From: Cinnamomum chago
Taxonomy: Eukaryota > Streptophyta > Magnoliopsida > Laurales > Lauraceae
DNA: 64,000 bases
Direction of reading: 5' to 3'
Assembly (NCBI GenBank): GCA_038049695.1
Contig: CP142460.1
Coordinates: forward strand, 35,250,001-35,314,000
The notes beneath the pieces were generated by a model. It ran no database searches, was not told the DNA's origin, and saw nothing but the letters and a program-made list of their open reading frames with translations. A program made the translations under genes and the position numbers. This document shows, one piece after another, positions 939 to 61,162 of this stretch (positions are counted from its first letter, which is position 1; the number at the start of each line of letters is the position of its first letter).

Positions 939-968
939 TGGGCCATGGTCGCCGGCGACCATGGCCCA
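939..968. repeat. 30-bp perfect palindrome in family F LTR
   Basis: A perfect palindrome centred on GGTCGCC/GGCGACC with CCATGG on each side. It sits in a GC-rich block (about 890-1030) that holds further partial copies of CCATGGTCGCC and CCCAGGGTCGC. The equivalent palindrome is at 61133-61162. Confidence 0.85.
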
Positions 969-2394
969 GGGTCGCAGGCCTGGCCCAGGGTCGCGGGGCT
1001 CTGCTACCCTGGGGGGGAAAATTGCTTCCCGGGGCCCGTTTCTGGCCGTTTTTCGTCGTTTTTCGCTTCCGTTTTTTTTGTTTGTTTTCTATGACATTTC
1101 TCCACATTTTTGGCTTGATTTCCCTCTGAAAAACATGATGAGAATCCTTGCAAATTGGTTTGCAAAGTTTCCGATTTTCCGGGAAAAGCCGAGCGCAGAA
1201 CTGCTGATTTTCCGCCAGAAGCTGAAACAGGGTCAAACGATGTCGGAATGACCTGAAATTTGAGGTGAAGCTTCTTGAGCATTAAATAAGACCAACCATG
1301 GGCTTTCTTTTGAGTTTTGAAGCCGTTTGGGGTCATGCAAATGCTTGCCTTTGATTTCACTGCGAGGGAAATGCCGAACTTTGACTTTCGGTCAAACGAT
1401 GTCCGATTGACCTGAAATTCGACGTGTGACTCCCTCATCAGTAGTTAAGACCAACCATAGGCTTTCGTTTGAGTTTTGAAGCCATTTGGAGTCATGCAAA
1501 CGCTTGCCTTTGTTTCTCCTGCGAGAGAGATGCCGAGCTTTGACTTTCGGTCAAACGATGTCCGATTGACCTGAAATTTGATGGGGAGCCTATTGGAGTT
1601 ATTTTGAGATGATCCACAAGCTCCGAATTGGGTGCTATGGTCCCGGGGTGCTCAGCTGCCGGGAGCTGCTGCTTAGCTGTTTGGAGAAGTGAAGCTAGGC
1701 CAAATGATATCGAAATGACCCGAAACTTCATGTGTACCTCTCTTTTGGTTCTTTTGAGTGACCTTGCAGTTTTTGTTTGATTCTGACAAGATCTGATGCT
1801 TGAAGTGGCGCCTGCCTATTTTGGTAGGATGCAGCTCCGTGTAGCTTTTGGTGTGAAGAGGCAAAGTGACATTTTTGGTGTCAACAAGAAAGCCCTCCAT
1901 TTGTCTTCATTTCTCTTGTTTGACCTTCTCTAGGTAAGTGCTTCCACTCATATCTTTCATGGAGTTATTTTGGTTCCTCAAGATCATGTTTTTCATGTTT
2001 GCAAACCCTTTTGTTAAAATGGGTTCTTTGGTTCCATTTTGAGTAAGTTGTGTGGTTTTCTCTTGGGTTTTCTTGTAGTGTTGGCTTAGCTTTTGAGTGA
2101 AGTGCTTGGAGAGGATTGTTAGCATTTGGGCAAGGCAAGTAATCTCTATAGGACCATTGTGCATGTGTATTTTAAGCTACAATGTTGTTTTGGAAATTTT
2201 GCATATGAATATGTTTACAAGTTTCATGATCTTGTTTTCCTTGGATTGGAGGTTTGAAATTGAGAAAAATATGTGTTTTATCCCTTGGAGAGCATGTAGG
2301 CTCAGGGAGTGCAAGTGGAATAAGGAACAAGAAGAAGGGAAGAAAGAAATGTGAAAATCTGAACTGGGCTGCATTTCGTGCAGTTCGGTCATCC

Positions 2395-2790
2395 GTCGGT
2401 TGGGTGGCGGCTAACCGAAATCCTCATTTCGGTTAACCGTGAGCTGACCAAGCTCGGCGGTTCCCTTTCCAGTAGCTGGCTTTTCTACAGTGGGTCTCCG
2501 ACCAGCGAGCGGCTAGCCGCCATACCCCATCTCGGCTAACCGCTGGCCAACCTCGCGTTGTCGGTTCCTTTTCCCGAGAGCTACATTTCAGACTGGGTTT
2601 CAGCAGTCAGCTCACGGCTGACCGCCAAGTCTCAGTTCGGCTAACCGTAAGCTAACCGCAGTCAGTTTGGTTCTTTTTCCAGAGGGCTGTGTTGGACCTG
2701 GATTTCCAGCGGTCAGCTCGTCGGTCAGCTGGCGGCTAGCCGCCAGACCTTAGTTCGGCTAGCCGACACCTGACCGCGAGGTGACTGAAT
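2395..2790. repeat. Cluster of GGCTAGCC/GGTTAACC palindromes in LTR A
   Basis: About ten imperfect copies of CGGCTAACCG or CGGCTAGCCG-like motifs, in both polarities, spaced 20-60 bases apart and joined by runs such as GGTTCCTTTTCC. This occupies the position where the related Tekay LTRs carry their TCGCTCGAGCGA cluster, but the core motif is different. Confidence 0.7.
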
Positions 2791-3433
2791 TTGGCAAATT
2801 TCCTGTTTTGAAGAGCTTTTGCAAGAATGAAAAACTAGAACATGTTAGTGGCCTTTAGCCTGATATTATGCACTCGAAACCCGAGATGTCCTTGAACTTC
2901 TGGGGCACCAATTCCGTTTTTATTCCAACATCTGGGCTTCGGCTGCACAACGATCAACCAAAGGTCCTTGCATGAGCTTGATAGGCTTTGTATTCGTACT
3001 TTGGTTTTCGATATGATGAATATCATCGTGTACTCATTTTGAAGTTTAAGTACAAGCTCGTTTTGAAGACGTGTTTCAAGAAAAAGGGGATCACTTCCTA
3101 AGCGTGTTATGCATATTAATTATACCCTTGCTAGTCGTGTTCATCGTGTTTTGATAAGTGATTTCCCCCTTTTTTATCTCGACAAGTTTTGATAGTGTTT
3201 CACGTGTTTTGTGCATTCATGAATTAAGTAAACACCACTGAGCTTAGACTGCCCTTTCAGTTTGATCCACTGTCTGGGGGTCTTTAAACATGTGGACTGT
3301 CTGCAGACTGGTCGTGTATTTATTACACATCGTGCGTGTCCGGTTCCGCGGCCGGAATTCCCATCTTTGTGGGAAATCGTGTCGTGCTTATATTATGTAT
3401 ATCGTGCTTGTCGTGCGTGCTTGCTCTTTTCAT

Positions 3434-3441
3434 TATATAAA
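3434..3441 (+). promoter_or_regulatory. Candidate TATA box of LTR A
   Basis: TATATAAA in plus orientation, matching the orientation of this LTR and about 730 bases before its 3' end. Supported by composition and position only. Confidence 0.4.
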
Positions 3442-4169
3442 TGATAGAGAAATGATAGGCTCCTTGTGGATTGTAACTGTTCATGATATATTATGTAGTC
3501 ATGCTAGTTTGTTTTAATATCTCAGCTCAGTTATCTATTTCTACAAATGTACCTCAGTCATTATAGTGTTTTAAATCAAGGATTTGCTTTTATGTTTTCT
3601 TAAACATTATTGTTCACGCTTGCTCCTAAATTGATTACCTGCCAAACCGTTGTGTTTGACCCTTGTTTGTTGGTGCCCAGGTGCAGGAGACGTTACCTTT
3701 GAGGAGGATTGTCAGGAGGAGGCTTGTGAGCCAACCCCTGTGAGAGAGTGGCAGCCCGACGATGTCATCTAGACGTCGGGCGGGTTTTCGAGTCTCGTCA
3801 TCGTTGTCATAGGGTTCTTTTGGATTATTTTGAAGAGTGTATTGGCCTCTGTTGGCCTCTTATGGAATTGTAACAAAACTTAACTTACTTTTGAATTAGT
3901 CTCATAACTTGAATATTAATGGGAATGCCATGTTAGCTTCTTTCTTTGATACTATGCCTTGTGATTATTTTGTCAAAGCACTTAAAGACTTATTGGTGCT
4001 TATCTTGATGTGTTTTGCTACACGCTTCCGCATATTTGATCGTGTGAGTCAGATTCCGCGTGTCTTTGGGAATCTTCACCGCGGGAACCTGTGAGAAAGT
4101 ATATCTCCAAAAATTGAATGTACAAAAAACAACGTCGCGGGCCCGGGGATCCGTTCCGGGGTCGCGACA

Positions 4170-4431
4170 ATATATTCCCCAACACCTCCAAAAACAGAAA
4201 CTCCTCATCAATCAACCGTATTCTCATGGCACTTCTAAGGCATCAAACACATTATCTCAACTACACATACATGGTATATACACACACACTATACATCTCA
4301 GACCAAATACATACGAGCCCATGCCATGAGCCAAGTACAACATGAATACATGGCCAGTACATATGAATACAATATAGAACAGGGATACACCAGAGATGGA
4401 CACCTAGGACATAAATCGAAGAACGATAGCC
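4170..4431. other. Spacer and probable 3' UTR of the PMD pseudogene
   Basis: AT-rich sequence between the LTR A terminus and the stop codon of the minus-strand PMD pseudogene. It would be the 3' untranslated region. I saw no canonical AATAAA on the minus strand and no primer site next to the LTR. Confidence 0.4.
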
Positions 4432-5721: not shown

Positions 5722-8219
5722 CTGAAACAGGAAAACAACATATTGGATCAAATCAAGGATAAGGGACAATATTAAGTCAGATAAGTAGAAAAGATTAAAT
5801 GATTACCCGAAATGAAAGCAACGTCTCCATCACCTCAGTGCAATTTCGGATAGAATAGGAAGATCCGCTGGAATATGACCCAGGCAGTATGTACCGGTGC
5901 GTGATGTCCCTCCAGCGCCACTCATAATCACCCGATGCTTCTTCATCCACACTGAAAATAAGCGCTTGTCCCCCTTTATCCCAATCATCTATCTCAAGCT
6001 GGTGTGGATGGGAGTGACCAAATATTGCTTCGCCCCATCCCCTAAATGAATGACTCATGGCAAGCTCAGGAGGTAAGACGACCTAATGACTACCGAACTA
6101 GGAAGCAACTCGACTCACGACAAGCCTAGAAACAATCTGAGGGGCATGAAGCCATATGTCTCTCGCAAATAAATGCATCCCCTCTCGCACTGCCATAAGC
6201 TCATCATCAGGGCCACCCTGGTAAGGACACCAAACGATCTAAAAAAAAAAAAATTTTGGGAAAGAGCATAACCCCTAAGGATGTCAACCATTAGCAACCT
6301 AAAGAAAAAGGGTAGCCGATTTTGGCCTAATTCCAAAACAAGCTAACAGCTTAAAAGGAAAAGACAGAGGAAGAATGACTTGCCTCCCGGTCCATCAACT
6401 CGTTCAAAATAAAATAGTAGCCCTTCTCAACAGGTCTCACCCTCAAATCTTTAGTTCTTTTTGCCAGCTCTGTAGGTCGGATGTCAGCGAAACCCCGCAC
6501 AGTAGCATTCGGATACCACTGCGCCACCCGGGGAGCAAGGCTTAACCGCACTGGCAAACGCTCGGGGCGACCCTGCAAGATATGCTCCCACACCCACACC
6601 TGTTTCAAAACAGTTAAGTCATTAGTAAGGCAGAATGTTCAAAGCGAAAGGTTAACAAATATGGAAAGCTGATTTACCTGAAGAATTGGGACAAAACCCC
6701 GGAGCCTCCTGTGGCCCCTCTGGACCCGACATCTATCATCTAGACTATGGAAAAGAAAGGCAAGAGTTGCCGCACCCCAGGCATAATCACCTACCCGACT
6801 TAATCATCTACAAACCTGAGTACGGTGCCAGACACTCTGTTGCCCGTAGCATTCACAAATAAACATTTCCTAAAGAAATAAAGGAGGAATGCACGAAGGC
6901 TCTCATCCTCGCCTTGCCTAGCTGACGGCAACCGAGGACGCCTCAATGCAACATCAAGTCGGGTCCCCTTTTTCCTTACCAAATTGACAAAGATCTACAG
7001 TTAATAATACTCATTCCATTTACGAAAAGCAATATTGAGGTCATGACTTACTACTCACTCGTCACATAGAAGGTCTCGTAAGGGATCCCCACTCTCTTCC
7101 GACGAAAGTACCCATCAACGGGTACCTCTCTGCACTCATACTCTACAAATAAAAAAGGCGATTAGAAACGTTAGCCACCCCTCTCATCTCCGCTACCCCC
7201 GTCGTCCATCGGGTCATCACTATCATCAGACGCAAGTAGCTCATCCAGAGGCACTGTATATTCCTCATCATTGGGATCGCTAGCCGCGCCCTCACTCTTA
7301 TCCATTCCGATATCCGGACGAGTAGCTTCCGCCATGCCCGTCCTTGCCCGCTTAGTAGGAGTTAGAGCATGTTCTCTATCTCCACCCCTAACCGGTGAAC
7401 CTCCGGCAGCTGTCATCTGCACCTCATGACCAGCAAAGAACTCTGTCTGATCACTAGTCCAACCTAGATCGCAAAAGAAACAATGATAAGTGAGTGAACA
7501 AATGAATCAAAGGTTACAAGAGCAATGGGAGAATACTCACTGTCTAGAATCTTCGCCCTCGCGGGGCCATGAGCCTCCCATAGCCATTCAATGTCACTCT
7601 GGCTAGAGCCAAGATAAGGCCGTTGCCAAACAAACATTGAAGCAAGGGCCGAATGAGCTTGGGATTAGCGTCAACCGCACCAGTCGAAACCGGCAAACCG
7701 CTCACCCTCAAACCCCAACATCTCGCTATGTCCTCAAGGGTGATGGTCATCTTGCCGGTCAGGAAATGGAAAGAATGAGTCTCGTCCCTCCATCTCTCCG
7801 AAAGTGCTCTAATCAGACAACGATCAACTCGAAAAGCTACAATCAACATGAGATCTCCGAAACCCATGGCTTGGAGACGATCCTTTAAAGTGTCCGGCAG
7901 CTCCGTCCACCACTCTTTCACCTTAAGCCACCCCACCCTCATCCGAGCAAGAGGTACATAATTAAAGACAAGTGATGGTGAGACGCAATACAGAAATGAC
8001 TAGGTGTCATTACCTTGCGGGGTCTTCTTTAGTTCGTTGCTTCTTCCGCCTCTTTCCGGGTCGGACCATGTTCTGCCCCGCCTCGGGCTCCCTAGTAAGT
8101 CCAACTCTGGGGTCCTTCCCTTGCCTATCTAAGGGAACACCCCCACAATCTCCCGACGAACCCTCTCCTAACTCAATCAACGTCAAGGTCCTCTTACTAG
8201 CAAGCCTCGTCTTAGCCAT
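4432..8219 (-). pseudogene. Plant mobile domain (PMD) gene with coiled-coil tail, degraded
   Basis: Exons inferred from reading frame plus GT/AG sites on the minus strand: 8014-8219, 7541-7937, 7179-7463, 7059-7142, 6678-6994, 6384-6599, 6119-6238, 5807-6082, 5659-5721, 5498-5581, 5352-5396, 5212-5277, 5057-5146, 4916-4975, 4789-4836, 4432-4701. Exon 1 starts MAKTRLASKR and is basic. Exon 2 carries the hallmark PMD sequence (MGFGDL, then ERWRDETHSFHF, then TITLEDIARCWGL). Exons 5-8 continue it (RAFLLYFFRKCLF; VGDYAWGAATLAFLF; VWVWEHI; IVWCPYQGGPDDEL). PMD is the domain of MAIL1/MAIN-type plant proteins and is also known inside transposons. Breaks: frame changes inside exon 2 (about 7615-7660), near 6960-6990 and near 6803, and an in-frame TAG at 4789-4791. 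Hence a pseudogene, or less likely an assembly with several indels. It has no retrotransposon pol domain nearby on its strand. Confidence 0.78.
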
Positions 8220-11294: not shown

Positions 11295-12189
11295 TGAACG
11301 AAATCAAACCTGCATACAAATACACCCAGCCTTAGAGACTCTCCACATGAATGATGGTATAAATAGGAATTGAGCCAAAAAGAAATGGAAGATCACTTGG
11401 GCGCACCAGTGGTGGCGCCCAAGTCCATCTCAGGGATTTCATCCCATGTGGGTCCAGTTTAGCCCAAAACTATTCATCAAAGCCCCTGAAATTCGTGAGG
11501 CAAATACCCCGAGGGTACTGACAGGTCGCTTTAAGGTCTGTAGAAAACCAAAAACATGATTCCTTTGCTAAAGCAAGACTTAATCATGCAATACAACATC
11601 TTAACAACAAACAAAAAACATTAAGAATTACAAAAGAGAAATCTAAGAGACATGAGGAATAAATCAAAAACCTATTGGTGTTCAATCAAATAATGAAATT
11701 CCAATCTTAAAACTACAATCCAAGTTTGGACTAAAAAAAATCATCACCATTCAATGATGAGTAAAACAAAGAACTACAAATCTGAAATAAAAGAAAGACA
11801 TCATAAAATCTTTTAGTAGTTCATAGGACATGACATAAACACAAACGAACATCATAACATCAGCATAAAAAAAGAGAGGAAAGAAATACCTTTATTTTGA
11901 AAAAAAGAAGAGAAAGAGAAAAAGAATGAAGAAGATGACCTAGTCTAAGAAAAGAAACAAAAGCATAGCATGGCTAAAACCAAAACCCAATATGAGATTG
12001 AAACATAAAAAGAACATCCCATCATGTCTCAAAGAAGAGCAAAGCAACTAGAAAGCATGATGTATACCTCAAGACCAAAAGAGAGAAAAGAGTGCTTACT
12101 TGAAGACAAAAGGGAGACCAAAGACCCTGGAACATGAAGTTTGAGGAGTAGAAAACGTGGAGAAACCCATAGGCAACCCTTCCTTATAT
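11295..12189. other. Non-coding stretch left of copia-1, with TATA-like box and hairpin
   Basis: A-rich sequence without a gene I can support. TATAAATA in plus orientation lies at 11358-11365, and 30 bases further on is a hairpin (11395-11424) of the same type as the array at 32.8-35.9 kb. After removal of copia-1 and the Tekay element, this sequence continues into 21419-21703 and 32710 onward, so all three are pieces of one older unit. Confidence 0.5.
11395..11424. repeat. Hairpin motif ACTTGGGCGC...GCGCCCAAGT
   Basis: Arms ACTTGGGCGC and GCGCCCAAGT flank ACCAGTGGTG, which is nearly self-complementary as well. Related hairpins recur at 32851-32880, 33868-33905, 34076-34109, 34278-34310, 35450-35522, 35699-35731 and 35818-35851. 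Confidence 0.8.
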
Positions 12190-12194
12190 AGGTT

Positions 12195-13956
12195 TGTTAG
12201 TTTTATGGTCTCAATACCAAGGGTATATGATGTAATAAATTGATTCATTTCTTTATTTATCAATACAATCATGCTTTCCTTTCATGAGATGAATGGTGTT
12301 TCATTATATACTTGCACATAACCAATACAAATGACATAATGGTTCATGAGATGAACCGGAGTCCACAAGTATACTCGATGTAATACATGTGTATGGATGA
12401 GATCCACATACAGGATATATGTATTGCAAATCTTATACTTAAATATCTTCACAACCAGTGATGAGATTGAACATCTCATCTGACAAGGTTGCAGCACTTT
12501 GATCACTATGAGATAGTGTGATTTGTCTCGATCATCGGAATGTAAGATTCTGGATCATGGTGCGGTACATTGGATGTATTGAAGGACCATGAGAAGCACC
12601 TTATACACACTGTCTTTACTTTAAGGTCTGCTCTCATAATTCCTTAGCAATAGGCTCATAATCCTGAGACATTAATGAACTCAAGTTTCTATCTATGCAT
12701 TTGCTTTGAGTCACCAATGAGTGAGGCCAATTGTAAGTCAACACCTCGGTGATTTGGGTATGTGGTCGTAGAGCTGTGGGAACATTCAATGGTCAAGTTG
12801 GAATCTATCTTTAATATCCCCTTGTGCCAATTAATGGATTTATCATTGGTAAGTGCGCACCCATTCCAATTAAGAGTTAATTGGATCGGTGCCAAATGAT
12901 CATTATAATTAATTGGGGCTCAAGGATAATAAGATATGGATCTAATTTGGTGGACAGGTCCATTTGATCCATGGATATAGATGGAGGGGCCTACTTGTGG
13001 TAATGTGGAAGTTTAGGGTCTTCATTATAATTTATTCCTAAGACTAGAGTACAATTGCATTTATATAGTGGAGTTATTTGCAATTAACTGTGGGCCCGGA
13101 TTACACATGAGATGTGGGGTCGCGTGTCCCAGTTGGAGCCAGCTTTCTAAGGAATCCCTAGTGGTCCCCACGCTAGCCCAAATTATTAGAAAGATAATAA
13201 TTCTACTCGAACTCTAAAAGGAAGGTTACTATTTCTATTTGAAGTGAGACTTCTAATAGTGGTAATGGTAAGCTACTAATTATTAATGGAAGTAGGACTT
13301 CTATTTTAATTAGAAAGGAGAAAGCTACTAATTATTGTGGAAGTGAGACTTCTATAGCAACTAGCAAGGGAGAAGTTTACTATTTTGTAATAGGAGTTAA
13401 AGTTCTATTTCAAATAGGAAAAGAGGTGGATTGGAGGGCTATAGAAAGAGGAATAAACTCCTCTTGGTTGTGCATAATACATAGAACAAGTCCAGCCCCT
13501 TTGTGCAAGTGTTGCACAAGTTCTCTTCCTCTCTAAGTTCTCCTCTCTTTCACCTTTAGTTCCTTAGAGTTACTAGTTGGGTTTTCTCTTGAAGATTCCA
13601 CCATCTTCTTGAGAAAAGAGATCTAATATGGGCCATAGCGTGGAAGATCAAAAGGTGTTGGAGAATTTGAATTGGATTGTGAAGGTGTTCATCATCAAAG
13701 TAAAGAACTCAAATTCTCCATTAGAGCACAACAAAGCTCCAAAGGTATATCTACATCCTTGTATGCTGTAGAATTCGTGGTTGCATGTTTATATGCGATT
13801 TTCTATCTTCTAGATAGGTTATGTTGCTGTATATGGTTTATGAGATTGAGGGATTGCTTCCTGGATTGGGTTTAATGCTTCTAGATTATTGATCCCTGCA
13901 TCAAGTAGGTCAAAAGTTTTTGAAACCTGTCTGGAAGGCCAACCTATATTCCTACA
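12195..13956 (+). repeat. Copia-1 5' LTR
   Basis: 1762 bases, from TGTTAGTTTT to TTCCTACA. It is followed at once by the primer site. It contains an alternating block near 13200-13400 of 'gaagT(G)AGACTTCTA' style repeats. Annotated open frames in it are repeated in the 3' LTR and are not genes. Confidence 0.95.
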
Positions 13957-13958
13957 AT

Positions 13959-13970
13959 TGGTATCAGAGC
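13959..13970 (+). other. Copia-1 primer binding site (initiator Met tRNA)
   Basis: TGGTATCAGAGC, two bases after the 5' LTR end. This is the standard plant copia primer site complementary to the 3' end of initiator Met tRNA. Confidence 0.95.
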
Positions 13971-15708
13971 CATACCTCATCTCTAATCATGTTAGATCAG
14001 CAAGCTTGCTCAAATCTTTGCATGGGATGCTAAGAAGATGAAGCAAGGGCTATGTAAGGATCAATTTTGATGAATTTACTTGGTTTGATAGTAGATTCAT
14101 GTTTGGATAGTCACAAAAGGGTTTAATAATGATGGAAGGATAATAGGAAGCCATTGGAACACTTAGGAAGTGATTTGGGGAAGAATGGACACGAAATAGA
14201 AAACCCGTGTTGCAGGTTTTCGTCAGTCCGGTCGACCTGGCCCCGTGCTCGGTCAACCGGCTGACTTGCAGGTCGGTCGACCGAGCCCCCTGGCCGGTCG
14301 ACTGAGCCTTCTGCACAGCAGGTTGTAGAAACTGTTTTTTCAGTTTCGGGTCTTCTCTTACATCCTATTTTTCCAGCATTATTTGGCATCCTATTTTTGT
14401 GATTTGTATGGTTGTATGAGATACTAACTTGCAGATGATAATGTCCTCTCCATATGGCCCACAAGTCTTTTGCTTTCTATTTATGGTGATTGGTTTATTT
14501 AAGGCTAAATGTAAAGGGCGTCATGGTTTCCTTGGTTTCCCGTGAAAGGTCATGGCATGATGAATTTCCCTATAGCCTTTTTATTTCCATGTTTAGATTA
14601 CCATGTAAGTCTCATAATCGAGGCATAGGAATTTATGTAATTTTTCTAAATTTGTAAATTCTGCCAATGTCCGAGACAAAGAAGGAAAGCGATGTTGGAC
14701 TCCTAATCAAAGAGTTTGAAGATTACCAAAAGTGTTTTGGAGTTGCCCAAAGAGTTTGATGAACTCCAGAAGTTTTGGAAAGTCTAGAAGTCCAAGAAGT
14801 CTATTCCGCTTGCGCCATATGGAGGAGAGGACTAGTTTCTATTTTTTGCAATTTCTATTTATGGATGCATGCTTAATTTAGAATATTTCCAGATCTGATC
14901 CAAACATAGCAAGTTACTAAAATTGGTCAAATCAAATTAATTTTTGGAAAGAGTTCTAATTAGTGTTGATGACCCATGAGATGGACACATTGGTAACACT
15001 AATTTAGAAACTGGACTTTCCTTAAAATAACTTGACTTGGAACCAATTTTAGATCATATCATGAGATGATTTGATGTTCATATGTATACATGTGGGCCCT
15101 AATACCTTACAAAGAAATCCTCAATTCTAAAATATTAAGTGGGAGAGGGGCATTTATATTTAGAAATCCCCATGGTTTTTCACCATAGGTCCATCGTAAG
15201 GAAAGTATTAGCCTCACACCATTTTGAGAATGGTCGTTCCCCACGGAGGGCTTTTATTAGTCTGGTTACTAGATATGGATCTCCTATGGATAGTGTTGGT
15301 GAGACGGGGCGGGGGCCCACTCCCCAAGGAGGAGCTGCTCGCAACGGTTGTCATGCAATGCTAGTTGGTGGGTCACACTTAACTAAAATAATGATGTAGT
15401 ATCCCCAAGGATTTGCCTCATTTATTTTTGAAACCGAAGTTAATCGGGAGTCATTCATTATTTGATATAAGATACCTAGATAATAATGAATGAAGGGGAT
15501 CATGGAAAGTTAGTCTTAATCCTAATTTTGACCAACTATGATCCGCACCAATCCAGGTGGTATTAGCACTCCCCAAGGAGGCATACCCCGGGGATTGGGA
15601 TTCCGATGTATTCTGAATTTAGTGGTTATGAGGATTCCATATAAATTTGGTAGAATACTAAACCCTAATGTCATTTAAACTCATTAATTGTGCTACAATA
15701 TTTCAAGC
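13971..15708 (+). other. Copia-1 leader, with GGTCGACC palindrome cluster
   Basis: Untranslated leader of about 1.7 kb between the primer site and gag. A block at 14228-14310 has repeated GGTCGACC and GGTCAACC motifs separated by 15-25 bases, the same core as in LTR family E. No other coding region is supported; the open frame at 15139-15399 has no recognisable similarity. Confidence 0.7.
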
Positions 15709-18700: not shown

Positions 18701-19652
18701 AGGAATGTTGTCAACAGTAAAAGTATGGTTAGCAAAGACTTTTGATATGAAGGACTTGGGAGAAGCTAGTTACATCCTAGGGATCAAACTCCATCGAGAC
18801 CGGAAAAATAGGATGATTGGCTTATCTCAAGCTGCTTACATAGATAAGGTACTGGTACGGTTTGCTATGCAAGACTCCAAGAAGGGTATCACACCTTTCA
18901 GGCATGGAGTGTACCTTTCCAAGGATCAGGGTCCCAAGACCCCAGAGGAAAAGGAGCAAATGAGAGCAATTCCATACGCTTCGGCTGTTGCTAGCCTCAT
19001 GTATGCTATGCTATGTACTAGACCGGATATCTGTCATGCAGTGGGCTTAGTCAGCAGATATCAGTCTAACCCAAGTCCTGACCATTGGACTGCTGTAAAA
19101 TGTATCCTCAAGTACTTGAGAAGAACTAGAGATTACATGTTGATTTACGTTAGTGATGAGCTGATTCCAGTCGGATACACAGATTCTGACTTCATGTCAG
19201 ATAAGGATTCCAGGAAATCCACCTCTGGTTATGTGTTTATGCTTGGCGGAGGAGCTATCAGCTGGAGGAGTATTAAACGAGAATGTACTGCTGATTCCAC
19301 TTCTGAGGCTGAATATGTAGCGGCTTTTGAAGCAGCTAAGGAAGCAGTATGGCTGAAAAGATTCCTTTTGGAACTTGGAGTGGTACCTTTGGCGCGACAG
19401 CCGCTCACAATTTACTGTGATAGCAGCGGGGCAGTCGCTCAGTCCAAGAAACCCAGGAGCCATAAAAGCCAAAAGCATGTACAGAGAAAGTATCACTTGG
19501 TCAGAGAGATTGTGCAGAGAGGTGATATTGCTATCACCAAGATAGCCTCTGCGGAAAATCTGGCAGATCCCTTTACTAAGCCTTTGACCACCAAGGTTTT
19601 TGAGCAGCATGTAGACGGGATGGGCATGAGATGCAATCCTGATTGGCATTGA
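15709..19652 (+). pseudogene. Copia-1 gag-pol polyprotein, degraded
   Basis: Start chosen at ATG 15709 (MNSNTFNPL), which aligns with copia-2 gag. Domains in order: gag; CCHC knuckle broken by TAG at 16501-16503 (CFHCGMTGH, then the stop); protease with VDFGATNHIC, where the usual catalytic DSG reads DFG; integrase with HLRLGH, then a short deletion near 17120 that removes the zinc-finger CxxC pair and shifts frame; integrase core (TDVCG, SDRGGEY, PQQNGVVERRN); reverse transcriptase with YVDD at about 18670; RNase H (YTDSDF). Further stops at 17640-17642, 17811-17813, 18159-18161, 18168-18170 and 18555-18557. The RT and RNase H part from 18621 to the end is open. Not functional. Confidence 0.93.
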
Positions 19653-19656
19653 GCCT

Positions 19657-19667
19657 AAGTGGGAGAT
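19657..19667 (+). other. Copia-1 polypurine tract
   Basis: AAGTGGGAGAT directly before the 3' LTR. Copia-2 has the same tract (AGTGGGAGAT) at the same place. Confidence 0.85.
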
Positions 19668-42277: not shown

Positions 42278-42281
42278 TGCA

Positions 42282-46214: not shown

Positions 46215-48049
46215 CTCTCTGGATATATAACAGGTTATAATTAGACAGGCAGTATATATGTAATATGTATATGGTGCTTGTAGTAAAAGGAAAAACATGC
46301 ACAAGACTTTTTACATTATATAACCCTAATAATAATGTATCAGTGTCTCAACCTCCTCATAGACCCTCCATCGAAGGGATGGCCGAGCCTACAGTCACGT
46401 TGAGTTAAGCCTAGCTTATTTGGATCATCACTGTCTGGATACGCATACCCAGTGATAACCCAATCACTGATTGGTTTGGCCTCATATGACAAATAACACT
46501 AACTCCTAGGGAGAGGTTATTACCGTCTTATGTCAAGTGTATTACCATCTCTTATGAACGTTCCCAGAATGTCTATGACTTAAGTCCTTCGAAGGGAAGA
46601 GACTTTAATCCAATCTAGAAGTGATCTTTAGTAAAGAGCTCCACCGAAGGGATGGCCGCTCCCACCAACGCTTCATTGACATTCTATAGAAGTGATCTTT
46701 AGTAAAGAACTCCACCGAAGGGATGGCCGCTCCCACTAACACCTCATTACGAATATTCACATTAGTTCACCTACTAATTCATCAAAGTGATCTTTAGTAA
46801 AGAACTCCACCGAAGGGATGGCCGCTCCCACTAACACTCCAATGAGTTAGCATGAACCGAAATTGGAAGGCCGTGGGATTTTTCCAAATCCCTCTCCCAC
46901 TTGATTATTAATCACTAGGGTTATGGGCCCACTTTGGTATCAACATATTAGATTTTAGTTTGGCCTCTTTTGGAAACTAAGGGTACCAAGGTAAACTAAA
47001 CCCTATCCAATTTTAAACCTTAGACAAATAGAAGGTGCTGGTCTAAGATCCGTTTAAAAACAATTTGCCAAACAAAAACAATCCAATATAGAAAGATGCC
47101 AATTTTAAGAACCTAGTGGTGGCCATGTTTCTAGGTGATAAACATAGCAATTATATAAAGCATTCAACCATGCATTCCATATATAAAAGCAAATTTAAAG
47201 AATGCAATCCTTGATGGCTCCCTGCTCTTTGGACTTCAAATCCTTTTCCAATTAGGAAACTTGGTAAAGAGTCCTTCTTGCGCTAGGAAACCTCCGTTGC
47301 CTTCGTCACCATGGGACCCGTTTTGTTGCAACCTTCCTCGCTTGAAACTTTCCTTTTCTTGCTTGTTACAATAAATCAAAATTTATACAAGCAGCTCAAT
47401 GAAAAACAAAAACCCAAAATCACATTGGAGATTCCTATGCTTTTCAAGAAAGCTTACATCAAGACTAGTTGAAATAAAAGTAAGGAAATAATTACAACTT
47501 CCTATGATTGCTAACCGCGCAATCGTACATTTATCAACTAATAAAAACATCCAAATCCACACACATACATGCGAACCATCAAGGATGCAATATATGGCTG
47601 CAAACAAAGAGGTTAGTGCATGCAATTGTGCTTGGTACAGCACTATATAGTGGTCTGAAATTTTTTCAGCACCCTGGAAAAATATTCCTGCACACTTTTA
47701 TGCAATCAGCTGTGCTCTATGTAATTCCAGCAGCATGGAATAGATTTCTGCACACTATTATGCAATCAGCTGTGCTCTATGTAATTCCAGCAGCATGGAA
47801 TAGATTTCTGCACACTTAATCTGATGTAAACTGAGTTCAGAAAAAAATTCCAGCAGCCTGGACTGATTTCTGCACTCCTAATCTGATGTAAACTGAGTTC
47901 AGAAAAAATTCCAGCAGCCCAGGAAAAATTCCTGCACACAACCTTTGCAGGAAACTCCTTGAAGCATCATCCTAAAGGGCGCCACCATGCCCTTAATTAA
48001 TCTAGGAATGAAAACCACACAACATGGGATCATGATATCACATGGAGTG
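46215..48049 (-). other. Copia-2 leader with two tandem repeat blocks
   Basis: Untranslated leader of about 1.8 kb. Block 1: three near-identical copies of 'gtgatctttagtaaagaactccaccg' plus 'aagggatggccgctcccac' at 46621-46667, 46692-46738 and 46787-46831, with a degenerate fourth near 46363. Block 2: a 60-base unit repeated at 47701-47760 and 47761-47820, followed by shorter 'aattccagcagc' pieces to 47940. Copia-3 has the same two blocks in diverged form. No gene is supported here. Confidence 0.85.
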
Positions 48050-48061
48050 TCTCTGATACCA
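48050..48061 (-). other. Copia-2 primer binding site
   Basis: TGGTATCAGAGA on the minus strand, one base from the 5' LTR. It matches the initiator Met tRNA site except at the last base. Confidence 0.9.
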
Positions 48062-48062
48062 A

Positions 48063-50083
48063 TGAAAGTTTATGCATATCAGATCTGAAAGGAGACTAAT
48101 CATGGCTGATATGAGTTTTCAGAGTTTTTAAAACTAGAAATCAGATCTGATTCCAGCCATGTAACCATGCATAAAAGTCCATGAAATCATGATCAACATG
48201 TGTCTAAATCAAGGATAAGATAGAAGACTATTACCTTGATGATTTGTATGCTTTAAATCTCTGAAAGAAGAAGCTTCAAAGATCTGAAATCAGCTAGCAG
48301 AAGACAGCACAGGTGCAGAAATCTTTGTGCAGGAATTTCCTGCAACAATGCTCCTTTTAGTCTTCTCCTCTATTCCCCTTTCTACAATCTGATTGGCTAT
48401 TGCTGGTGGGAACAAACTAGGCTTCCTCCTAACTGTTTTCCCTTGATTTTATGTGAGAAAACCAGACCTGATATGGTCTTTCTCTAGGAGTAAAAACGTG
48501 GACCAGCAGGGACACTTTTCTTGTGCAAGATGACAATGGACGTCCAAGGATGGTGCTGGCTGTTTTCTTTCTCACTCACGCCCAAAGGGTTTCTCTCCTA
48601 CTTAATGCTCAAATCCCCTCTTTCACGCCCAAGGGAAACCCCTTTATATAATGGCTGAAAACTTGGAGAGAAAGACTCTTGATATAACTAGGAAACCAAG
48701 AGAGAAACTAGGAACTTTCCAAAAAAGGAAACCAACTTCATCATGGACGTCCAGCCCTCTTTCCTTACTAGTTTAGTTTCTAAATAAAATTAGAAGCCTA
48801 CTAAACTTAAGGAGAACTTGCACAAAAAAAGAAATCCTTCCAAGTGATAGGACCTACACAACCTTGGGACCCACATACTAGGGACCACATTGGTTAGCCC
48901 ACACATACTATGGTCTATGTACCAAATAATTTTTCTAGAGTTGTAACCCATGTATGCCATAATAGGCCTATTTGAATTTACACTCAAAATTATTTCTCCA
49001 CACATTTAAACAATTTAGGAAACCTTGCCAATCTAGGAAAGTGGCTAGAGAAGGGACCAAAAGACATATTTGCCCTTGGCTCCCAAAATGACCAAAATGT
49101 CCATGCTAACCCCATAGCAACATTAAGATCATTTTAACCCTAACTCATTCCACTAGAGAGTTATGGTTGCACTCCAGGGACAAATATTAAATTGCAAATA
49201 AGCTCATCATAAAAAGACGATTGTCTTTGACCTACCAAGTAAAATGACCATAATGCCCCTCTACGTAACATCCATAATCAAGTAGGTTAACCGATGTACT
49301 ATCTACCTTCTTGATTACATCTCAACCTTAGAACTTCATACCCTTGACTTAATCATCATCCGGATATCATTCTCTTGATCCAGGGAGCGACCCACAAGTT
49401 CAATATCCATATGGAACATCCATATACTAAGATCTTAGATTCTGATGATTAATCGGATAATTCTAAGGGGACGATCATTCCATCATGTGATGGCATAGAT
49501 TCCATGTTGCATTTGCACGTCCCAACTAATCAAGCCCAAGCACCCAAAACACAGAGCTGTTGACCCATGAACAGGATCTCACCCATAGTGAATTAAAGCA
49601 CAAGAACTTGACTTCGTCAGTTCATCCACAAATGCTCAAGATTAAGAGCACTGGTCACTCAGTAGCAAGAGGTGATTTGATCTCTCTCTGTGATAGTACT
49701 ATTTTAGAGATCACACCTACAAGTGGTCCTGTTCAATGCATGACACATGCACTAATGAGATAAATCCGGAAAGACCTCCTTGACTAAGGTAAGTCACCCT
49801 GAATACAGGAGAGTATCTCATTATAACTTATACCAGGATGAAGTGCCCAACTCCATCTCTCGGTTATGAACAAGTTTATTGTTTCAAGTGTCCATGACTC
49901 AGACCTAACTGTGTATAGCCACTACACACCTAAGTCATTACTAGAAAACAATGGGCCTTACACAACCATACATATACACAAGTATAAAGAGAAAGAAGTC
50001 ATTCCATTAAATAACCAATAAATATCCAGTTACAAAGATGAGAGTGCAGTCAGTGGGCTTTAGGGCATACACCAATCCCAACA
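48063..50083 (-). repeat. Copia-2 5' LTR
   Basis: 2021 bases, essentially identical to the 3' LTR. It holds the promoter for the element (see 48643-48650). Confidence 0.95.
48643..48650 (-). promoter_or_regulatory. Copia-2 promoter TATA box
   Basis: TATATAAA on the minus strand (CCATTATATAAAGGGG context) in the 5' LTR; the same box in the 3' LTR is at 40828-40835. It would drive the genomic RNA leftwards. Confidence 0.6.
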
Positions 50084-51505
50084 CGACCAAGCTACTGGAA
50101 TGCTCCGAACCCTTTCCTGGACAGGTCGCTCGAGCGAAGTGTCATGGTCACTCAAGCAAACTGTCCAGAAATCAACTCCGGACCAGTTCAGCTCCTCCAT
50201 AACTTTTCCTTTTTACAACCTCTTTTTGCCCTTCTTATACATCAAATGAGGAGTCTAATACTCTATTCAAACTACATCAATTCCTCATCAAATCCATCCC
50301 ATTCTCCTCCATCAACAACACATTCAATACAAGGGAAAAGGAGAAGGAAACCATTTCACCCAATATACATATTTGAGACAAAACAAGAAGACATTAATTG
50401 CTATGAACTAACATGTCCTTATGACCATAAATGCATCCTTTAATACTCCAACAAGATCATTTATTTCATCAATAAACACATGAATGAAAGCATAAAAATC
50501 CATAAAATGCTTCACCAACCATTTAAAACTTAAAACACCCAATCATCCACTTGCCTTATGTCCAAGCTAGCCAAAAATCAAGCCTCTATCACTTCTTAAG
50601 CTCACTTCCAAGCTACAATAAAAAACCCCCAAAACAACCCTAAAATGGGTTACACAAAGAATGAAATTGAAAGAACTACCCATAATGCACATGGAGCTCA
50701 TCAAGGGCTAGGAGACAACAAATCTAAAAGATGAAAGGGATTACTTACTTGCAAGGTCCTCTAATGGCAATGGTAAGCTCAAAGGAAGTCTTGGAATGGA
50801 AGGATTTCTTCACAAAACTATCAAGAGAAAGCTCTCAAGGAGGTGAAGAAGAAGATAACCTCAACTCTCCTATTAGTGTAAGCTTGGGAGTGGATTGAGG
50901 ATGAAGAAGCAAGAAGAAGAAAGAGTTGTTCACAAAACCCTGGGTTTTCACTCTCTTGTGCTGGAAAAAGGAAATGAAGAAGAAGAAGGGTCTCCTTATA
51001 AACAAGTGGGGAGTGGGCTCCACCATTAGAATTCTAATTGGGCTGAAATCATCTCTTTCGGGACCTCGGATGAATTGACGAAGAAGGAAGAAATGATCGT
51101 TGAAATATCTAGTTTCCAAAAAGTATATGTTTCATGGGTTTCGAGAAAACAAGTTTCGGGGTACAGATTTTGTGTGCAATGACTGTTTTGCCCTCAAGGC
51201 TATGAAATCGGTTTTCGGGATCTCAAATGGACACGGGATCAACATGAAAGTTGTAGAGCTTATCAATACCAATAAAACGGGATCAAAACAATGAATGCAA
51301 AAATCTCCGATAAATCCTCAAACATATGCAATGTCATGAAAAGGAACCCCCAAAGGGCCCTACTAGTTACCAAAGCATTCAAAGTAGCCCAAAATTAGAA
51401 TCAAAGCTATTCCAAGCCCAACGTAGCCAAAATCACGAATCAAGCTTAGAACTAACACACAACTTAATTAGCACTAATCGGGTTGACTCGGGTCGGGGTC
51501 TTACA
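50084..51505 (-). mobile_element. Tekay solo LTR D, right part
   Basis: Resumes at CGACCAAGCTACTGG, the exact continuation of LTR copies B and C after 'gagcgac', and ends GGGGTCTTACA before ATCAC. The first five bases are the copia-2 target duplication. Confidence 0.93.
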
Positions 51506-51510
51506 ATCAC

Positions 51511-52061
51511 ACACACACATCATGAGCATACACATTTGCATTCATATAATGTTTGTGTGAGTTTGATTTTCACTTTCATATTAGCCTATTTAAGAGGCAA
51601 TTCCATTGAGCTTTAATTGTATCTCATAGAGTGTTCTTGCATAGACACCTTCTTTGAGAAATCTCTCATTTGTAAAGGTTATTGCTTAGCCTAAGAAAAG
51701 CATTGTGTAAAGGTTATTGCTTAGCCTAGAAAAGCATCTTGTAAAGGTTGTTGTTAAGCCTAGAAAAAACAACATTGTAAAGGTTATTGCTTAGCCTAGT
51801 AAAAAGCATAATTAGTGGAAATCCGGTGGGGTGATTAGATCACAAGCCGGTAGTGGATGTAGGCATTGAGGCCGAACAACTATAAATCATTGTGTGGTGG
51901 TGAATGTGTTGTGGTGATTGTTTTAGCTTCCACATTTTGTTTGTTTATCATCACTTGTGACTAGTTTATTTTTAAGAAGTTAAATTTGGACATAATTGGT
52001 CACATCTTGTAGCTCACCCTATTCACCCCCCCCCTCTAGGGTTAGGATCCCAGGACTTTCA
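51511..52061 (+). mobile_element. Solo LTR E, right part
   Basis: Continues LTR E after the ATCAC duplication of D. It ends CAGGACTTTCA, followed by GTCAG. It contains a 35-base tandem repeat (51671-51808). Confidence 0.85.
51671..51808 (+). repeat. 35-base tandem repeat in LTR E
   Basis: Four units of 'tgtaaaggttattgcttagc' followed by 'ctagaaaagcat', with small changes, in the 3' part of LTR E. This is likely in the transcribed R/U5 zone. Confidence 0.85.
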
Positions 52062-55148: not shown

Positions 55149-57036
55149 CTCTCTGGATATATAACAGGTTATAATTAGACAGGCAGTATATATGTAACAT
55201 GTATATGGTGCTTGTAATAAAAGGAAAAACATGCACAAGACTTCTTACATTATTTAACCCTAATTATAATGTATCAGTGTCTCAACCTCCTCATAGACCC
55301 TCCATCGAAGGGATGGCCGAGCCTACAGTCACGTTGAGTTAAGGTCTGCTTATTTGGATCATCACTGTCTGGATACGCATATCCAGTGATAGTCCAATCA
55401 CTGATTGGTTTGGCCTCATATGACAAATAACACTAACTCCTAGGGAGAGGTTATTACCGTCTTATGTCAAGTGTATTACCATCTCTTATGAACGTTCCCA
55501 GAATGTCTATGACTCAAGTCCTCCGAAGGGAAGTGACTTTAATCCAATCTTGAAGTGAACTTTAGTAAAGAACTCCACCGAAGGGATGGCCGCTCCCACC
55601 AACACTTCATTGACATTCTATAGAAGTGATCTTTAGTAAAGAACTCCACCGAAGGGATGGCCGCTCCCACTAACACCTCATTACGAATATTCACATTAGT
55701 TCACCCACTAACCCATCAAAGCGATCTTTAGTAAAGAACTCCACCGAAGGGGTGGCCGCTCCCACTAATACTCCATTGAGATAGTATGAACCGAAAATGG
55801 AAGGCCGTGGGGTTTTTCCAAACCCCTCTCCCACTTGATTATTTAACACTAGGGTTTTGAAAAACTCTTTTGACCTTAGTATCGTTAGTTACTCAAAAAA
55901 TCTTTTTAAATCTAGCAAACTTAGTTAATTAAATTCATGACTCAATGACTTAAGTCATCTTGAACATAAATAACTTTTGCTTTAAAATATTTGAGCAAAA
56001 CACTTTAAAGGTTCAAATTTCCTAACTTGGGACCAATGGGTTATGGGCCCACTAAGGTAGCAACATATTAGATTTTAGTTTGGCCTCTTTTGGAAACTTA
56101 GGGTACCAAGATAAACTAAACCCTATCCAATTTTTAAACCTTAGACAAATAGAAGGTGCTGGTCTAAGATCCGTTTAAAACAATTTGCCAAACTAAAAAC
56201 AATCCAATATAGAAAGATGCCAATTTTAAGAACCTAGTGGTGGCCATGTTACTAGGTTATAAACATAGCAATTATATAAAGCATTCAACCATGCATTCCA
56301 TATATAAAAGCAAATAAAAGAATGCAATCCTTGATGGCTCCCTGCTCTTCGGACTTCAAATCCTTATCCAATTAGGAATCTTGGTTAAGAGTCCTTTTCG
56401 CACTAGGAAACCTTCGTTGCCTCCACCACCATGGAATCCAGTCTGTTGCAACCTCCCTTGATTCGAATTTTCTTCTTCTTGCTTGTTACAATAAATAAAT
56501 TTTATACAAGCAAACCCATGAAAAACAAAACCAAAGATTACATTGGATATACCTATGCTTTTCAAGAAAGCTTACATCAAGACTAGTTGGAATAAAAATA
56601 AGGAAACATTACAACTTCCTATGATTGCTAAACGCGCAATCGTACAATTTCCAACTAATTAAAAACATCCAAATCCACACACATACATGCGAACCATCAA
56701 GGATGCAATTATATGGCTGCAAACAAAGAGGTTAGTGCATTCAAAGTGCTTTGTCCAGCACTACACAGCATGCTGAAATTATTCCAGCAGTCTGGAAAAA
56801 AAATTTGCACACTATTTATGCAGTAAACAGCATTCTGGAATTATTCCAGCAGCCTGGAAAAAATTCCAGCACACTATTTATACAGTAAACAGCATTCTGG
56901 AATTATTCCAGCAGCCTGGGAAAAATTCCTGCACACTATTTATACAGTAAACAACATCCTAAAGGGCGCCACCATGCCCTTGATTGATCTAGAATTGATA
57001 TCCACACAACATGGGATCATGATTAATCATGGTGTG
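55149..57036 (-). other. Copia-3 leader
   Basis: Untranslated leader matching that of copia-2, with three copies of the 'ctttagtaaagaactccaccgaagg' unit (55557, 55627, 55729) and a block of 'ttattccagcagcctgg' units (56775-56950). It has an insertion of about 170 bases near 55855-56035 not seen in copia-2. Confidence 0.85.
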
Positions 57037-59066: not shown

Positions 59067-59084
59067 CAACCAAGTATATGAATC

Positions 59085-59590
59085 ATGTTACATTTTTCAT
59101 TAACATGATCTACTTAGATTTACCAAAGATAAAGTACTACTTGGATTGAATCAAATGGTGATTCATCCAAAACAATAGAACTATTCAAAGTATAAAACAT
59201 GCTAAGGATACAACACATCATAGTTTATCATGTTGCTAAAGATTTACCTACGATAAAACAAAACATGAAAACATATGATTTGTAAAGAGGTTGAGTCCAA
59301 AACATAAGATAGTTTTGAAAGTGATTTTCTTATGATGGAAAACAACAACCAAAGATTCAACCAAGTATAGGAATCATGTTACATATAATTTCAAAGGTTC
59401 TTTCATTAACATGATCTACTTAGATTTACCAAGATTAAGTACTACTTGGATTGAATCATATGGTGTTGTATCCAAAACAATAAATCAACTCAAAACATAA
59501 AACATGTTAAGGACACAACACAAACATAGTTTAACATGCTAGAAATGATTTACCAAAAATAAAACAAAGCATGAAAACATATGATTAAGG
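59085..59590. repeat. Tandem duplication of about 260 bases in LTR E fragment
   Basis: 59069-59295 and 59347-59590 share 'caaccaagtata.gaatcatgttac', 'cattaacatgatctacttagattt', 'gtactacttggattgaatca' and 'aaaacatatgatt'. Such a duplication is not evident in the E copy at 37406. Confidence 0.75.
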
Positions 59591-59769
59591 AAAGTAAAGC
59601 CTACTTGGTGATTTAACTTCATTAATCCAAGCTTTAGCTTTCTTAATGCTCCCCTTCATCCCTTGGTTCTTTTCCCTTGAATATGCCTCAAAACCTCTCA
59701 AGGAGGGGCTTAAAATTCCCAACTTTTGGCAAAGGAAAGAACTCATATTTATAGCAAAAAGTGCCCAAC

Positions 59770-59925
59770 GGCTAGTCCTCGGTCGACCGGCAAACAGGTC
59801 TCGGTCGACCGGGATCACACAACGGTCGGATTTCTGACCGTTGGTGCGCCAGGCCATTTCTGCCTTGCAGTGTTCCCGGTCGACCGGGACCTCTGCGCCG
59901 GTCGACCGGCGACACTGCAGTGGCC
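59770..59925. repeat. GGTCGACC palindrome cluster in LTR E fragment
   Basis: Four GGTCGACCG-type motifs, two of them inside an inverted repeat whose arms are TGCAGTGT...GGTCGACC-like, matching the hairpin at 37782-37841 but with changes in arms and loop. Confidence 0.85.
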
Positions 59926-61132
59926 AAAAATCCCAACTTTGCAAAAATGAAAGATTTTCTAGATGGAACTTTTTGGGCCAATTAATCAAGCTTAAAAGCA
60001 TGTTAAAAATCATTCTAAGGGTTTTAAAACATGGAACATAAAAAGCCTAAAACATTTTGAAAGATTTAAAACTCATAGGCTAGCTTGATTTTCTAAAACT
60101 CTTTTCAAATCAAATGCATCCAAGATTAAAAACAAATCATGCATAAATCAATACTTTTACAAATCTTAAAAACAATGCATGAATAAAACAAGATTTCAAG
60201 ATTTCTTAAATCAATGCATATGTGTTGTTGACACCAAAAATGTCACTTTGCCTCTTCACACCAAAAGCTACATGGAGCCGCATCCTACCAAAAATAGGCA
60301 GGCGCCACTTCAAGCATCAGATCTTGTCAGAATCAAACAAAAACTGCAAGGTCATTCAAAACAACCAAAAGAAGAGGTACACATGAAGTTTCGGGCCATT
60401 CCGACATCATTTGGCCTAGCTTCACTTCTCCAACAGCTAAACAAGCGCTCCCGGCGGCGACAGAATCGGAGACACCAAATCTTCGATCAGGGCCTATGGA
60501 TGTTCTCAAAATATGTCCAAAAGGCTCCATGTCAAGTCTCAAGTCAAACCAGCAATGTTTGACCCATCATCAACTCTCCAACGGCTGAATCAAGCCTACC
60601 AGCGGCAGAGCACCCCGGGACCATGGCACCCAATTCAGAGCTTGCGGATCATCTCAAAATGACTCCAATAGGCTCCTCGTCGAATTTCAGGTCAATCGGA
60701 CATCGTTTGACCAGAAGTCAAAGCTCAGCATCTCTCTCGCAGGAGAATCAAAGGCAAGCATTTGCATGACCCCAAACGGCTTCAAAACTCAAAAGAAAGC
60801 CCATGGTTGGTCTTATTTAATGCTCAAGAAGCTTCACCTCAAATTTCAGGTCATTCCGACATCGTTTGACCCTGTTTCAGCTTCTGGCGGAAAATCAGCA
60901 GTTCTGTGCTCGGCTTTTCCCGCAAAATCGGAAACTTTGCAAACCAATTTGCAAGGATTCTCATCATGTTTTTCAGAGGGAAATCAAGCCAAAAATGTGG
61001 AGAAATGTCATAGAAAACAAACAAAAAAAACGGAAGCGAAAAACGACGAAAAACGGCCAGAAACGGGCCCCGGGAAGCAATTTTCCCCCCAGGGTCGCAG
61101 AGCCCCGCGACCCTGGGCCAGGCCTGCGACCC

Positions 61133-61162
61133 TGGGCCATGGTCGCCGGCGACCATGGCCCA
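61133..61162. repeat. 30-bp perfect palindrome in family F LTR
   Basis: Same palindrome as at 939-968, centred on GGTCGCC/GGCGACC, within a GC-rich block at 61065-61215 with several partial copies. Confidence 0.85.

Follow-up and report, generated by a model that had tools for sequence, protein, structure and literature searches.

Arrays of short palindromes in copia and gypsy LTR retrotransposons of Cinnamomum chago as candidate dyad sites for dimeric DNA-binding proteins

The long terminal repeats (LTRs) of Sireviruses carry palindromic repeated motifs (RMs) in high copy number, nearly all of them with a CGG-CCG core and clustered upstream of the TATA box (PMC2829016). The study describing them compared Ty1/copia elements and called the motif Sirevirus specific; its Table 3 lists the palindromic motifs of 13 Sireviruses, including CGGTCGACCG in Vitis and the core CGGCTWRCCG in Citrus, and CGG is separated from CCG by 4 bases in the Vitis, Citrus, and Usier motifs and by 5 in most others (PMC2829016). 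Further features described for Sireviruses are a CA/ATTGG junction followed by TATCAGAGC, a polyC signal near the LTR 3′ end, several polypurine tracts (PPTs), an inverted repeat at the PPT/3′ LTR boundary, and a large gag. Here, we analyzed a 64,000-nucleotide stretch of Cinnamomum chago DNA, hereafter the window (assembly GCA_038049695.1, 1.06 Gb in 14 contigs; contig CP142460.1, or C10, positions 35250001 to 35314000), in which arrays of short palindromes reside not only in Sirevirus-type LTRs but also in Ty3/gypsy LTRs and in the leader of a copia element. We regard it as probable, rather than firmly established, that these arrays lie in control regions of the elements and serve there as dyad sites for dimeric proteins that bind DNA.

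Self-comparison and Pfam searches indicated that the whole window is a nest of plant LTR retrotransposons. A gypsy element on the minus strand (~21703-32707) is bounded by LTRs B (3′) and C (5′) and yielded Pfam matches to Retrotrans_gag, Ty3_capsid, RVP_2, and SH3_Tf2-1. Two other LTRs, A (gypsy-like, ~1888-4180) and D (a solo gypsy-like LTR at 38580-51505 with the target duplication ATCAC), are joined to this element by similarity. The assignment was made at the Ty3/gypsy level, "Tekay" being a label from an earlier sequence-only reading of the window. B, C, and D do not represent three families: B and C are the LTRs of one element, and D belongs to the same family. D lies inside E1, a Sirevirus-type solo LTR (~37406-52061, target duplication GTCAG) that is split by it, and D itself is split by G1, a copia element on the minus strand (40247-50083, target duplication CGACC). 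E2, a second, diverged Sirevirus-type LTR, is truncated and lies on the minus strand at ~59075-60227. The copia element Copia-1 occupies 12194-21414 on the plus strand; its LTRs (~12194-13957 and 19667-21414) are 96% identical, and the element gave matches to gag, integrase, and reverse transcriptase.

The palindromes named in the sequence-only reading were found at the coordinates it gave, and arrays do occur in both copia and gypsy elements, as it had claimed. In A, the array (2386-2790, plus strand) consists of the CGG-N4-CCG sites CGGCTAGCCG, CGGTTAACCG, CGGCTAACCG, and CGGCTGACCG, whereas CGCTCGAGCG sites make up the minus-strand arrays of B (23220-23475), C (31080-31335), and D, the last of which is cut by G1 into two parts (40068-40246 and, beyond G1, 50084-50160). 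E1 carries GGTCGACC sites directly upstream of TATAAAT (37782-37910, plus strand), E2 carries CGGTCGACCG sites upstream of a TATA box (59770-59925, minus strand), and four CGGTCGACCG-type sites lie in the untranslated leader of Copia-1 (14228-14310, plus strand). Loopless palindromes with arms of at least 4 or at least 5 bases were then counted in each interval and compared with 300 dinucleotide shuffles. With arms of at least 5, the counts were 4 in A (0.35 expected), 4 in B (0.32), 5 in C (0.38), 4 in D (0.23), and 5 in E2 (0.17), and none of the 300 shuffles reached these values. E1 stood out with arms of at least 4 (4 versus 0.49 expected, reached by 1 of 300 shuffles), the figures for arms of at least 5 being 1 versus 0.13 (36/300). 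The Copia-1 copy of the window, in which two of the four sites have decayed, gave 2 versus 0.41 (16/300) and 1 versus 0.11 (34/300), respectively. Thus, in the comparison with shuffles that the sequence-only reading had proposed, the arrays of A, B, C, D, E1, and E2 exceeded chance, the Copia-1 array did so weakly, and the LTR family F, described below, did not. A scan of 637 intervals made without prior knowledge of the arrays flagged the same six, along with 401-800, 20001-20400, 46401-46800, and 47801-48400.

Judging from its sequence features, E is a Sirevirus-type LTR. Both E1 and E2 carry CGGTCGACCG, a palindromic repeated motif with a CGG-CCG core. At the LTR/primer junction of L109, an E-type element with 65-66% identity to E1 and E2, CA/ATTGG is followed by TATCGGAGC, which has one mismatch to the Sirevirus TATCAGAGC. 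A polyC-rich signal is present near the LTR 3′ end, as a run of nine Cs in E1 (52026-52034) and a longer run in L109. As for gag, with E1 being a solo LTR and E2 truncated, the sole trace is a zinc knuckle in one frame of L109, under the Pfam cutoff. Copies for this and the following comparisons were fetched from lists of the best-scored 40 of 913 to 3,900 candidates: 20 of 39 listed for E, 20 of 39 for the Copia-1 leader, 20 of 38 for other copies of the gypsy LTR, 16 of 39 for A, with four places of the CGCTCGAGCG motif in addition, and 12 of 39 for the L110 type. A TATA box was present in all 22 E-type LTRs (E1, E2, and the 20 fetched), and in 20 of these the center of the last palindrome lies 31-32 bp from it. 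The distance is 95-96 bp in the remaining two, in which that last site has two mismatches, one more than was allowed.

Site-plus-spacer modules have been gained and lost among the E copies. In the L110 subfamily, the GGTCGACC core is flanked by an A-T pair in place of C-G at four sites out of six. In L109, the distal portion of the array has given way to a long inverted repeat, CTTTTAGCGGCGG...CCGCCGCTAAAAG, at the same place (6159-6193). The E-type LTRs also contain an inverted pair of AACGG boxes (37864-37890 and 59820-59845; TCCAACGGTCA...TGACCGTT in E1), which we take to resemble a mitosis-specific activator element, and AACGGTCA is kept in 18 of the 20 fetched E copies, as judged by eye.

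The array of Copia-1 lies ~270 bases past the primer-binding site at 13959. The junction of this element, ...TACA/ATTGGTATCAGAGCC at ~13953-13971, has the Sirevirus form of CA/ATTGG plus TATCAGAGC. Its LTR (12194-13957) contains no palindrome of at least 12 bases, and hence no RM cluster, and no C run at its end. When up to one mismatch is allowed, all four sites persist in 17 of the 20 other Copia-1 copies fetched and three sites in the remaining 3. Since the Sirevirus-type LTR E and the copia leader have CGGTCGACCG in common, the motif of these two is not family specific, contrary to the sequence-only reading. Its statement that the arrays share style and not sequence holds only in part, because A, E, and Copia-1 further have CGG-N4-CCG in common. 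The CGGTCGACCG motif of E and Copia-1 equals the Vitis motif letter for letter, and the Citrus core CGGCTWRCCG fits the CGGCTARCCG of A.

In the gypsy LTRs, anchoring by the flanks showed that different arrays occupy one and the same position. The motif at this position is CGCTCGAGCG in B, C, and D and CGGYTARCCG in A and the loci L011 and L112; L111 carries a mixed array of both, and L021 carries GTCCGATCGATCGGAC, with flanks that each match C at 73-74%. A single LTR position holds three different motifs and a mixed array, or four array types in all. L011, a relative of A (71%), is anchored on both sides, and A, L111, and L112 are anchored to C on the 3′ side only; TCCGATCGATCGGA was placed at this position from one locus read. 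The observation of the sequence-only reading that the position is kept and the motif is replaced between A and B/C/D was thus right, and it extends to a third motif. The Ty1/copia gene content of Sireviruses was not found in the B/C element: its array looks like a Sirevirus RM array, yet the element is not a Sirevirus.

The gypsy array has diverged less than the rest of the LTR between insertions but not after insertion. Between C and D, which are separate insertions, 21 of 256 array sites differ (8.2%) versus 564 of 2,713 elsewhere (20.8%; Fisher's exact test, 1.7e-7), and within the LTR, divergence is lowest in the two bins that cover the array. Between C and B, the LTRs of one insertion, the array does not differ from the remainder (9/255 versus 70/2,808; P = 0.30). 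In 23 rows, of which 20 are fetched copies and three are the window LTRs B, C, and D, variation was 0.027 in the motif, 0.041 in the spacers, and 0.084 and 0.087 in the flanks, figures that are biased toward conservation because the copies were ranked by similarity to an array-containing query. Comparison of the arms in these rows with the majority revealed 67 one-sided and no two-sided changes, as expected for decay after insertion, and two-sided compensation within gypsy copies was rejected. The two checks suggested by the sequence-only reading gave divided answers: conservation beyond the flanks is seen for the gypsy C/D array and not for E1/E2, and arms change one-sidedly in gypsy copies, with differences on both sides being found between two Sirevirus subfamilies.

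The half-sites of the palindromes show a rigid geometry. In the window, CGG..CCG is found 23 times with a gap of 4, the counts for the remaining gaps between 0 and 8 being 2 to 7 each; for CGC..GCG, the corresponding figures are 18 versus 0 to 6. A gap of 4 also leads for CGG..CCG in four further stretches, with 28 occurrences, and CGG-N4-CCG is the form common to A, E, and Copia-1. The gap-5 Sireviruses are presumably mostly grass elements. In the loopless motifs, the innermost four bases are themselves palindromic. A gapped variant was found at 32851-35848 on the plus strand, where ten dyads resembling ACTTGGGCGC-N10-GCGCCCAAGT (H dyads, at most two mismatches per arm) are present, and an eleventh, perfect one lies outside this tract at 11395-11424 on the same strand. 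The spacer is 10 bases long in all 11, although 0 to 30 were allowed. The sequence-only reading had named the motifs ACTTGGGCGC and GCGCCCAAGT here, and both are present, but their form is a dyad with a 10-base gap; loopless palindromes with arms of at least 5 are in modest excess at 32840-34320 (5 versus 1.42; 3/300) and absent at 35440-35860 (0 versus 0.26 expected). When gaps of 5 to 13 were allowed across the genome, the spacer was again 10 in the first 50 of 2,001 matches, which were those listed and all lay on contig C1; among them, there are 34 distinct spacers with a mean difference of 4.1 of 10 bases. Neighboring sites of the arrays are frequently 20-24 bp apart. A phase of ~10.5 bp was positive on 51 gaps from nine partly related arrays (0/5,000 jittered sets), on a set of 26 gaps in which the families are independent (0/5,000), and on 21 gaps longer than 25 bp (5/5,000).

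Exact matches to five motifs were counted across the genome, with the same word read backwards as the control. There were 11,616 matches to CCGGTCGACCGG versus 21 to the reversed word (which is also a palindrome), 20,150 versus 5 for TCGCTCGAGCGA, 4,013 versus 2 for TCCGATCGATCGGA, 1,862 versus 0 for GGTCGCCGGCGACC, and 2,001 versus 0 for ACTTGGGCGC-N5..13-GCGCCCAAGT. In a sample of 20 10-kb stretches (200 kb in total, taken at round coordinates of six contigs), a strict test for palindromic 8-mers occurring three times per 500 bp gave 2 cases versus 9 mirror-symmetric controls among 822, and the idea that palindrome clusters are everywhere was rejected. A softer search of the same sample found 13 same-core palindrome pairs versus 4 mirror pairs, compared with 28 versus 1 in the window. 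Four further stretches were selected for positions where repeats were hoped for, and arrays are present in every one of them, with 26 pairs in total against 2 mirror pairs. Possible further arrays in the 200-kb sample are TTTCCGCGGAAA, present twice with degenerate relatives (L010, 4650-4850), and a nested GGCCGTACGG repeat (L013, 6250-6300). In L112 (7336-7718) and L017 (1229-1493), CGGCTAACCG sites form pairs 23 bp apart that repeat every 115-118 bp, a pattern that is an A-type array as a tandem repeat.

Among the readings considered, that of dimers on DNA is preferred because of the rigid half-site gap, the palindromic innermost four bases, and the position of the last E site 31-32 bp before the TATA box. 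The dimeric host factor, one of the candidates of the sequence-only reading, is therefore the one we retain, on the ground of rigid half-site spacing. The bound protein would probably be a host transcription or chromatin factor; a trans-acting factor of the host is favored since CGGTCGACCG is common to unrelated elements and is also found in the Vitis Sirevirus. In such a mechanism, the arrays would act from just upstream of the TATA box in Sirevirus-type LTRs, from mid-LTR in gypsy elements, and from the leader in Copia-1. Sites that are often 20-24 bp apart could let neighboring dimers bind together, and joint binding would raise transcription, or lower it if the factor is a repressor. Modules of site plus spacer are gained and lost by the arrays, and within a lineage the site sequence can change at most sites of an array, so that different subfamilies have different dyads at one LTR position. 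A more speculative extension, which we consider possible but doubtful, is an arms race in which one plant factor or a small family of related dimeric factors reading CGG-N4-CCG and its variants acts on copia and gypsy elements alike, and LTR lineages escape or switch allegiance by replacing the whole array in one slot. The arrays may have converged, as the sequence-only reading suggested, or may derive from a single ancestral array, since CGG-N4-CCG is common to A, E, Copia-1, and the Vitis and Citrus motifs.

Several results weigh against the dimer reading. In the 200-kb sample, a CGG..CCG gap of 4 is not outstanding (23 occurrences versus 6 to 23 at the other gaps), and in the four further stretches, which bear LTRs, CGG-N7-CCG also peaks, at 19, without explanation. 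The ~10.5-bp phase is absent on 8 gaps longer than 25 bp from independent families (2,523/5,000) and on 15 distinct exact-site gaps (1,697/5,000); helical phasing was accordingly rejected as a firm claim. When the C/D array is compared with the four next least diverged bins, the difference of 20/255 versus 63/502 is not significant (P = 0.064), and the E1/E2 array, in which modules turn over, is no more conserved than its flanks. The place of the array differs between families, being in the unique 3′ region (U3), in mid-LTR, or in the leader. Arrays fold strongly as RNA in eight of eight stretches (z of -3.2 to -9.7), and whole site-plus-spacer arms in E are inverted and covary, neither of which simple binding sites need.

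These last two results bear directly on a rival explanation that we judge rather unlikely, namely, that the palindromes act as folded RNA or extruded DNA and are sources or targets of host small RNAs silencing the element, an idea put forward for maize Sireviruses. RNA folding beats shuffles in all eight stretches, although any sequence that repeats self-complementary words will fold strongly. Two papers characterize Sirevirus LTRs rich in palindromes as hotspots of small RNAs (PMC5311732, PMC10760457). The arrays of E hold nested inverted repeats that include the spacers. To assess their pairing, we aligned 12 rows, selected for orientation, length, and distinctness, which comprise the 7 of 11 E1-type and 5 of 12 L110-type stretches with the full structure. 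The long inverted arms are paired in 92.6% of the cells versus 20-41% when slid, three pairs differ on both sides in 5 of the 12 rows, and the covariation score is reached by none of 500 shuffles. The counts of both-sided pairs and of pair types are not above shuffles (reached by 389 and 498 of 500), and the five both-sided rows reflect one inherited change, not five events. The local palindrome behaves likewise, with 97.9% pairing, two both-sided pairs, and a score reached by 0/500 shuffles, and its both-sided pair and pair-type counts are reached by 365 and 500 of 500. A dimer on double-stranded DNA is preferred to a hairpin because the innermost four bases are palindromic though they would be an unpaired loop, because the H gap is fixed at 10 in all examples seen with a variable spacer sequence, and because 4 is the most frequent half-site gap in the window. 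Moreover, many sites of the E superfamily (L111, L112) consist of an 8-base core with mismatched outer pairs, which is too short for a stable hairpin.

Mutation without selection is in our view improbable; here, modules would be duplicated in inverted orientation and templates switched in the course of reverse transcription or repair, so that near-palindromes become perfect and symmetry and covarying arms arise at once. This explanation agrees with the visible gain and loss of modules in E copies, with arms that are inverted copies of each other, and with both-sided differences in neighboring pairs, as a single conversion event would leave. It does not account for the place beside the TATA box, for CGG-N4-CCG across superfamilies, for a 10-base spacer of free sequence, or for the lower divergence of the gypsy array between and not after insertions. 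Slightly less credible still is that the arrays bind an element-encoded protein that keeps the element unmethylated, in the manner of the VANC proteins of VANDAL transposons in Arabidopsis. According to sections of PMC5735166 and PMC10398659, VANC targets of VANDAL are likewise short, noncoding, repeated motifs that change between relatives; the VANDAL elements encode the binding protein, and YAGTATTAY and AGTTGTCC are not palindromes, nor does the word "palindrom" occur in PMC5735166. CpG positions in the 23-row gypsy array differ little more than others (0.033 versus 0.022). In contrast, a subset of 16 distinct frames gave ordinary retrotransposon domains in Pfam, or nothing in four cases, the sole oddity being a marginal zinc-finger match (E = 0.072) on the L109 zinc knuckle, and the CGG-N4-CCG form is common to elements of two superfamilies. 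Least probable of all, and to our mind very much so, is pairing of two genomic RNAs of one family for packaging. Palindromes are suited to pairing with themselves, and in Copia-1 the array is part of the transcript leader; however, the motif shared by E and Copia-1 would mix families, rigid spacing would be unnecessary, and E arrays upstream of the TATA box would be in the RNA only near its 3′ end.

Other features of the window were not counted as arrays. The F LTR is present in two copies, F1 and F2 (the latter at 60228-62104), which contain the same 30-base palindrome at 939-968 (minus strand, in a 23-base tandem unit at 919-979) and at 61133-61162 (plus strand, ~720 bases upstream of TATAAATA at 61880). 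Loopless palindromes are not in excess in F (78 and 80 of 300 shuffles reach the counts), whereas gapped inverted repeats are (17 versus 0.43 expected; 0/300). F was rejected as a palindrome cluster, since it has one palindrome. Its conservation is uninformative, the kilobase around the palindrome differing by ~1% throughout. Among the matches listed on contig C1, several F palindromes occur in pairs ~21 kb apart, which suggests a very long element. Downstream of F2, 62903-63964 holds a 166-base tandem repeat in three copies as well as a 153-base repeat related to it. Tandem repeats of 60-62 bases with TTCCAG/CTGGAA half-palindromes are present in the G1 and G2 leaders (47660-47940 and 56758-56957), which were rejected as an extra array case because their palindromes are not above shuffles. 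The insertion point of G1 (40242-40246/50084-50088) falls within the D array and borders a CGCTCGAGCGACC site; G1 is a very recent insertion, as its frame 42282-46304 is an unbroken gag-pol of 1340 amino acids and its LTRs are 99.95% identical.

The kind of array described here is already known from Sireviruses, and its novelty is lower than the sequence-only reading implied. What is new are the arrays in Ty3/gypsy LTRs, where CGC-N4-GCG and CCG-N6-CGG occur as further motifs, the swap of motifs at one LTR position, the CGGTCGACCG array in a copia leader, and the rigid half-site geometry. Clusters of palindromes in the regulatory portion of the LTR, with fast sequence change and strong predicted secondary structure, are described in sections of PMC5311732 and PMC10760457, there for maize Sireviruses only. 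Palindromic arrays in Ty3/gypsy plant LTRs, or swaps at one position, were not found in the open-license PubMed Central passages, titles, and abstract openings covered, and a search of papers for the letters of the motifs gave none that looked relevant by its title or the start of its abstract among the 20 of 311 listed. The leaders or U3 regions of Tnt1 and of Drosophila copia carry repeated protein-binding enhancer boxes. These boxes are not known to be swapped palindromic arrays.

Taken together, if unrelated superfamilies carry the same or interchangeable dyads, they are probably controlled by common trans-acting factors, which could be found in one binding screen. The array swaps at one LTR position are natural replicates for asking whether a change of regulator serves expression or escape from a repressor. 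With thousands of copies per motif, the elements may scatter ready-made putative binding sites through the genome.

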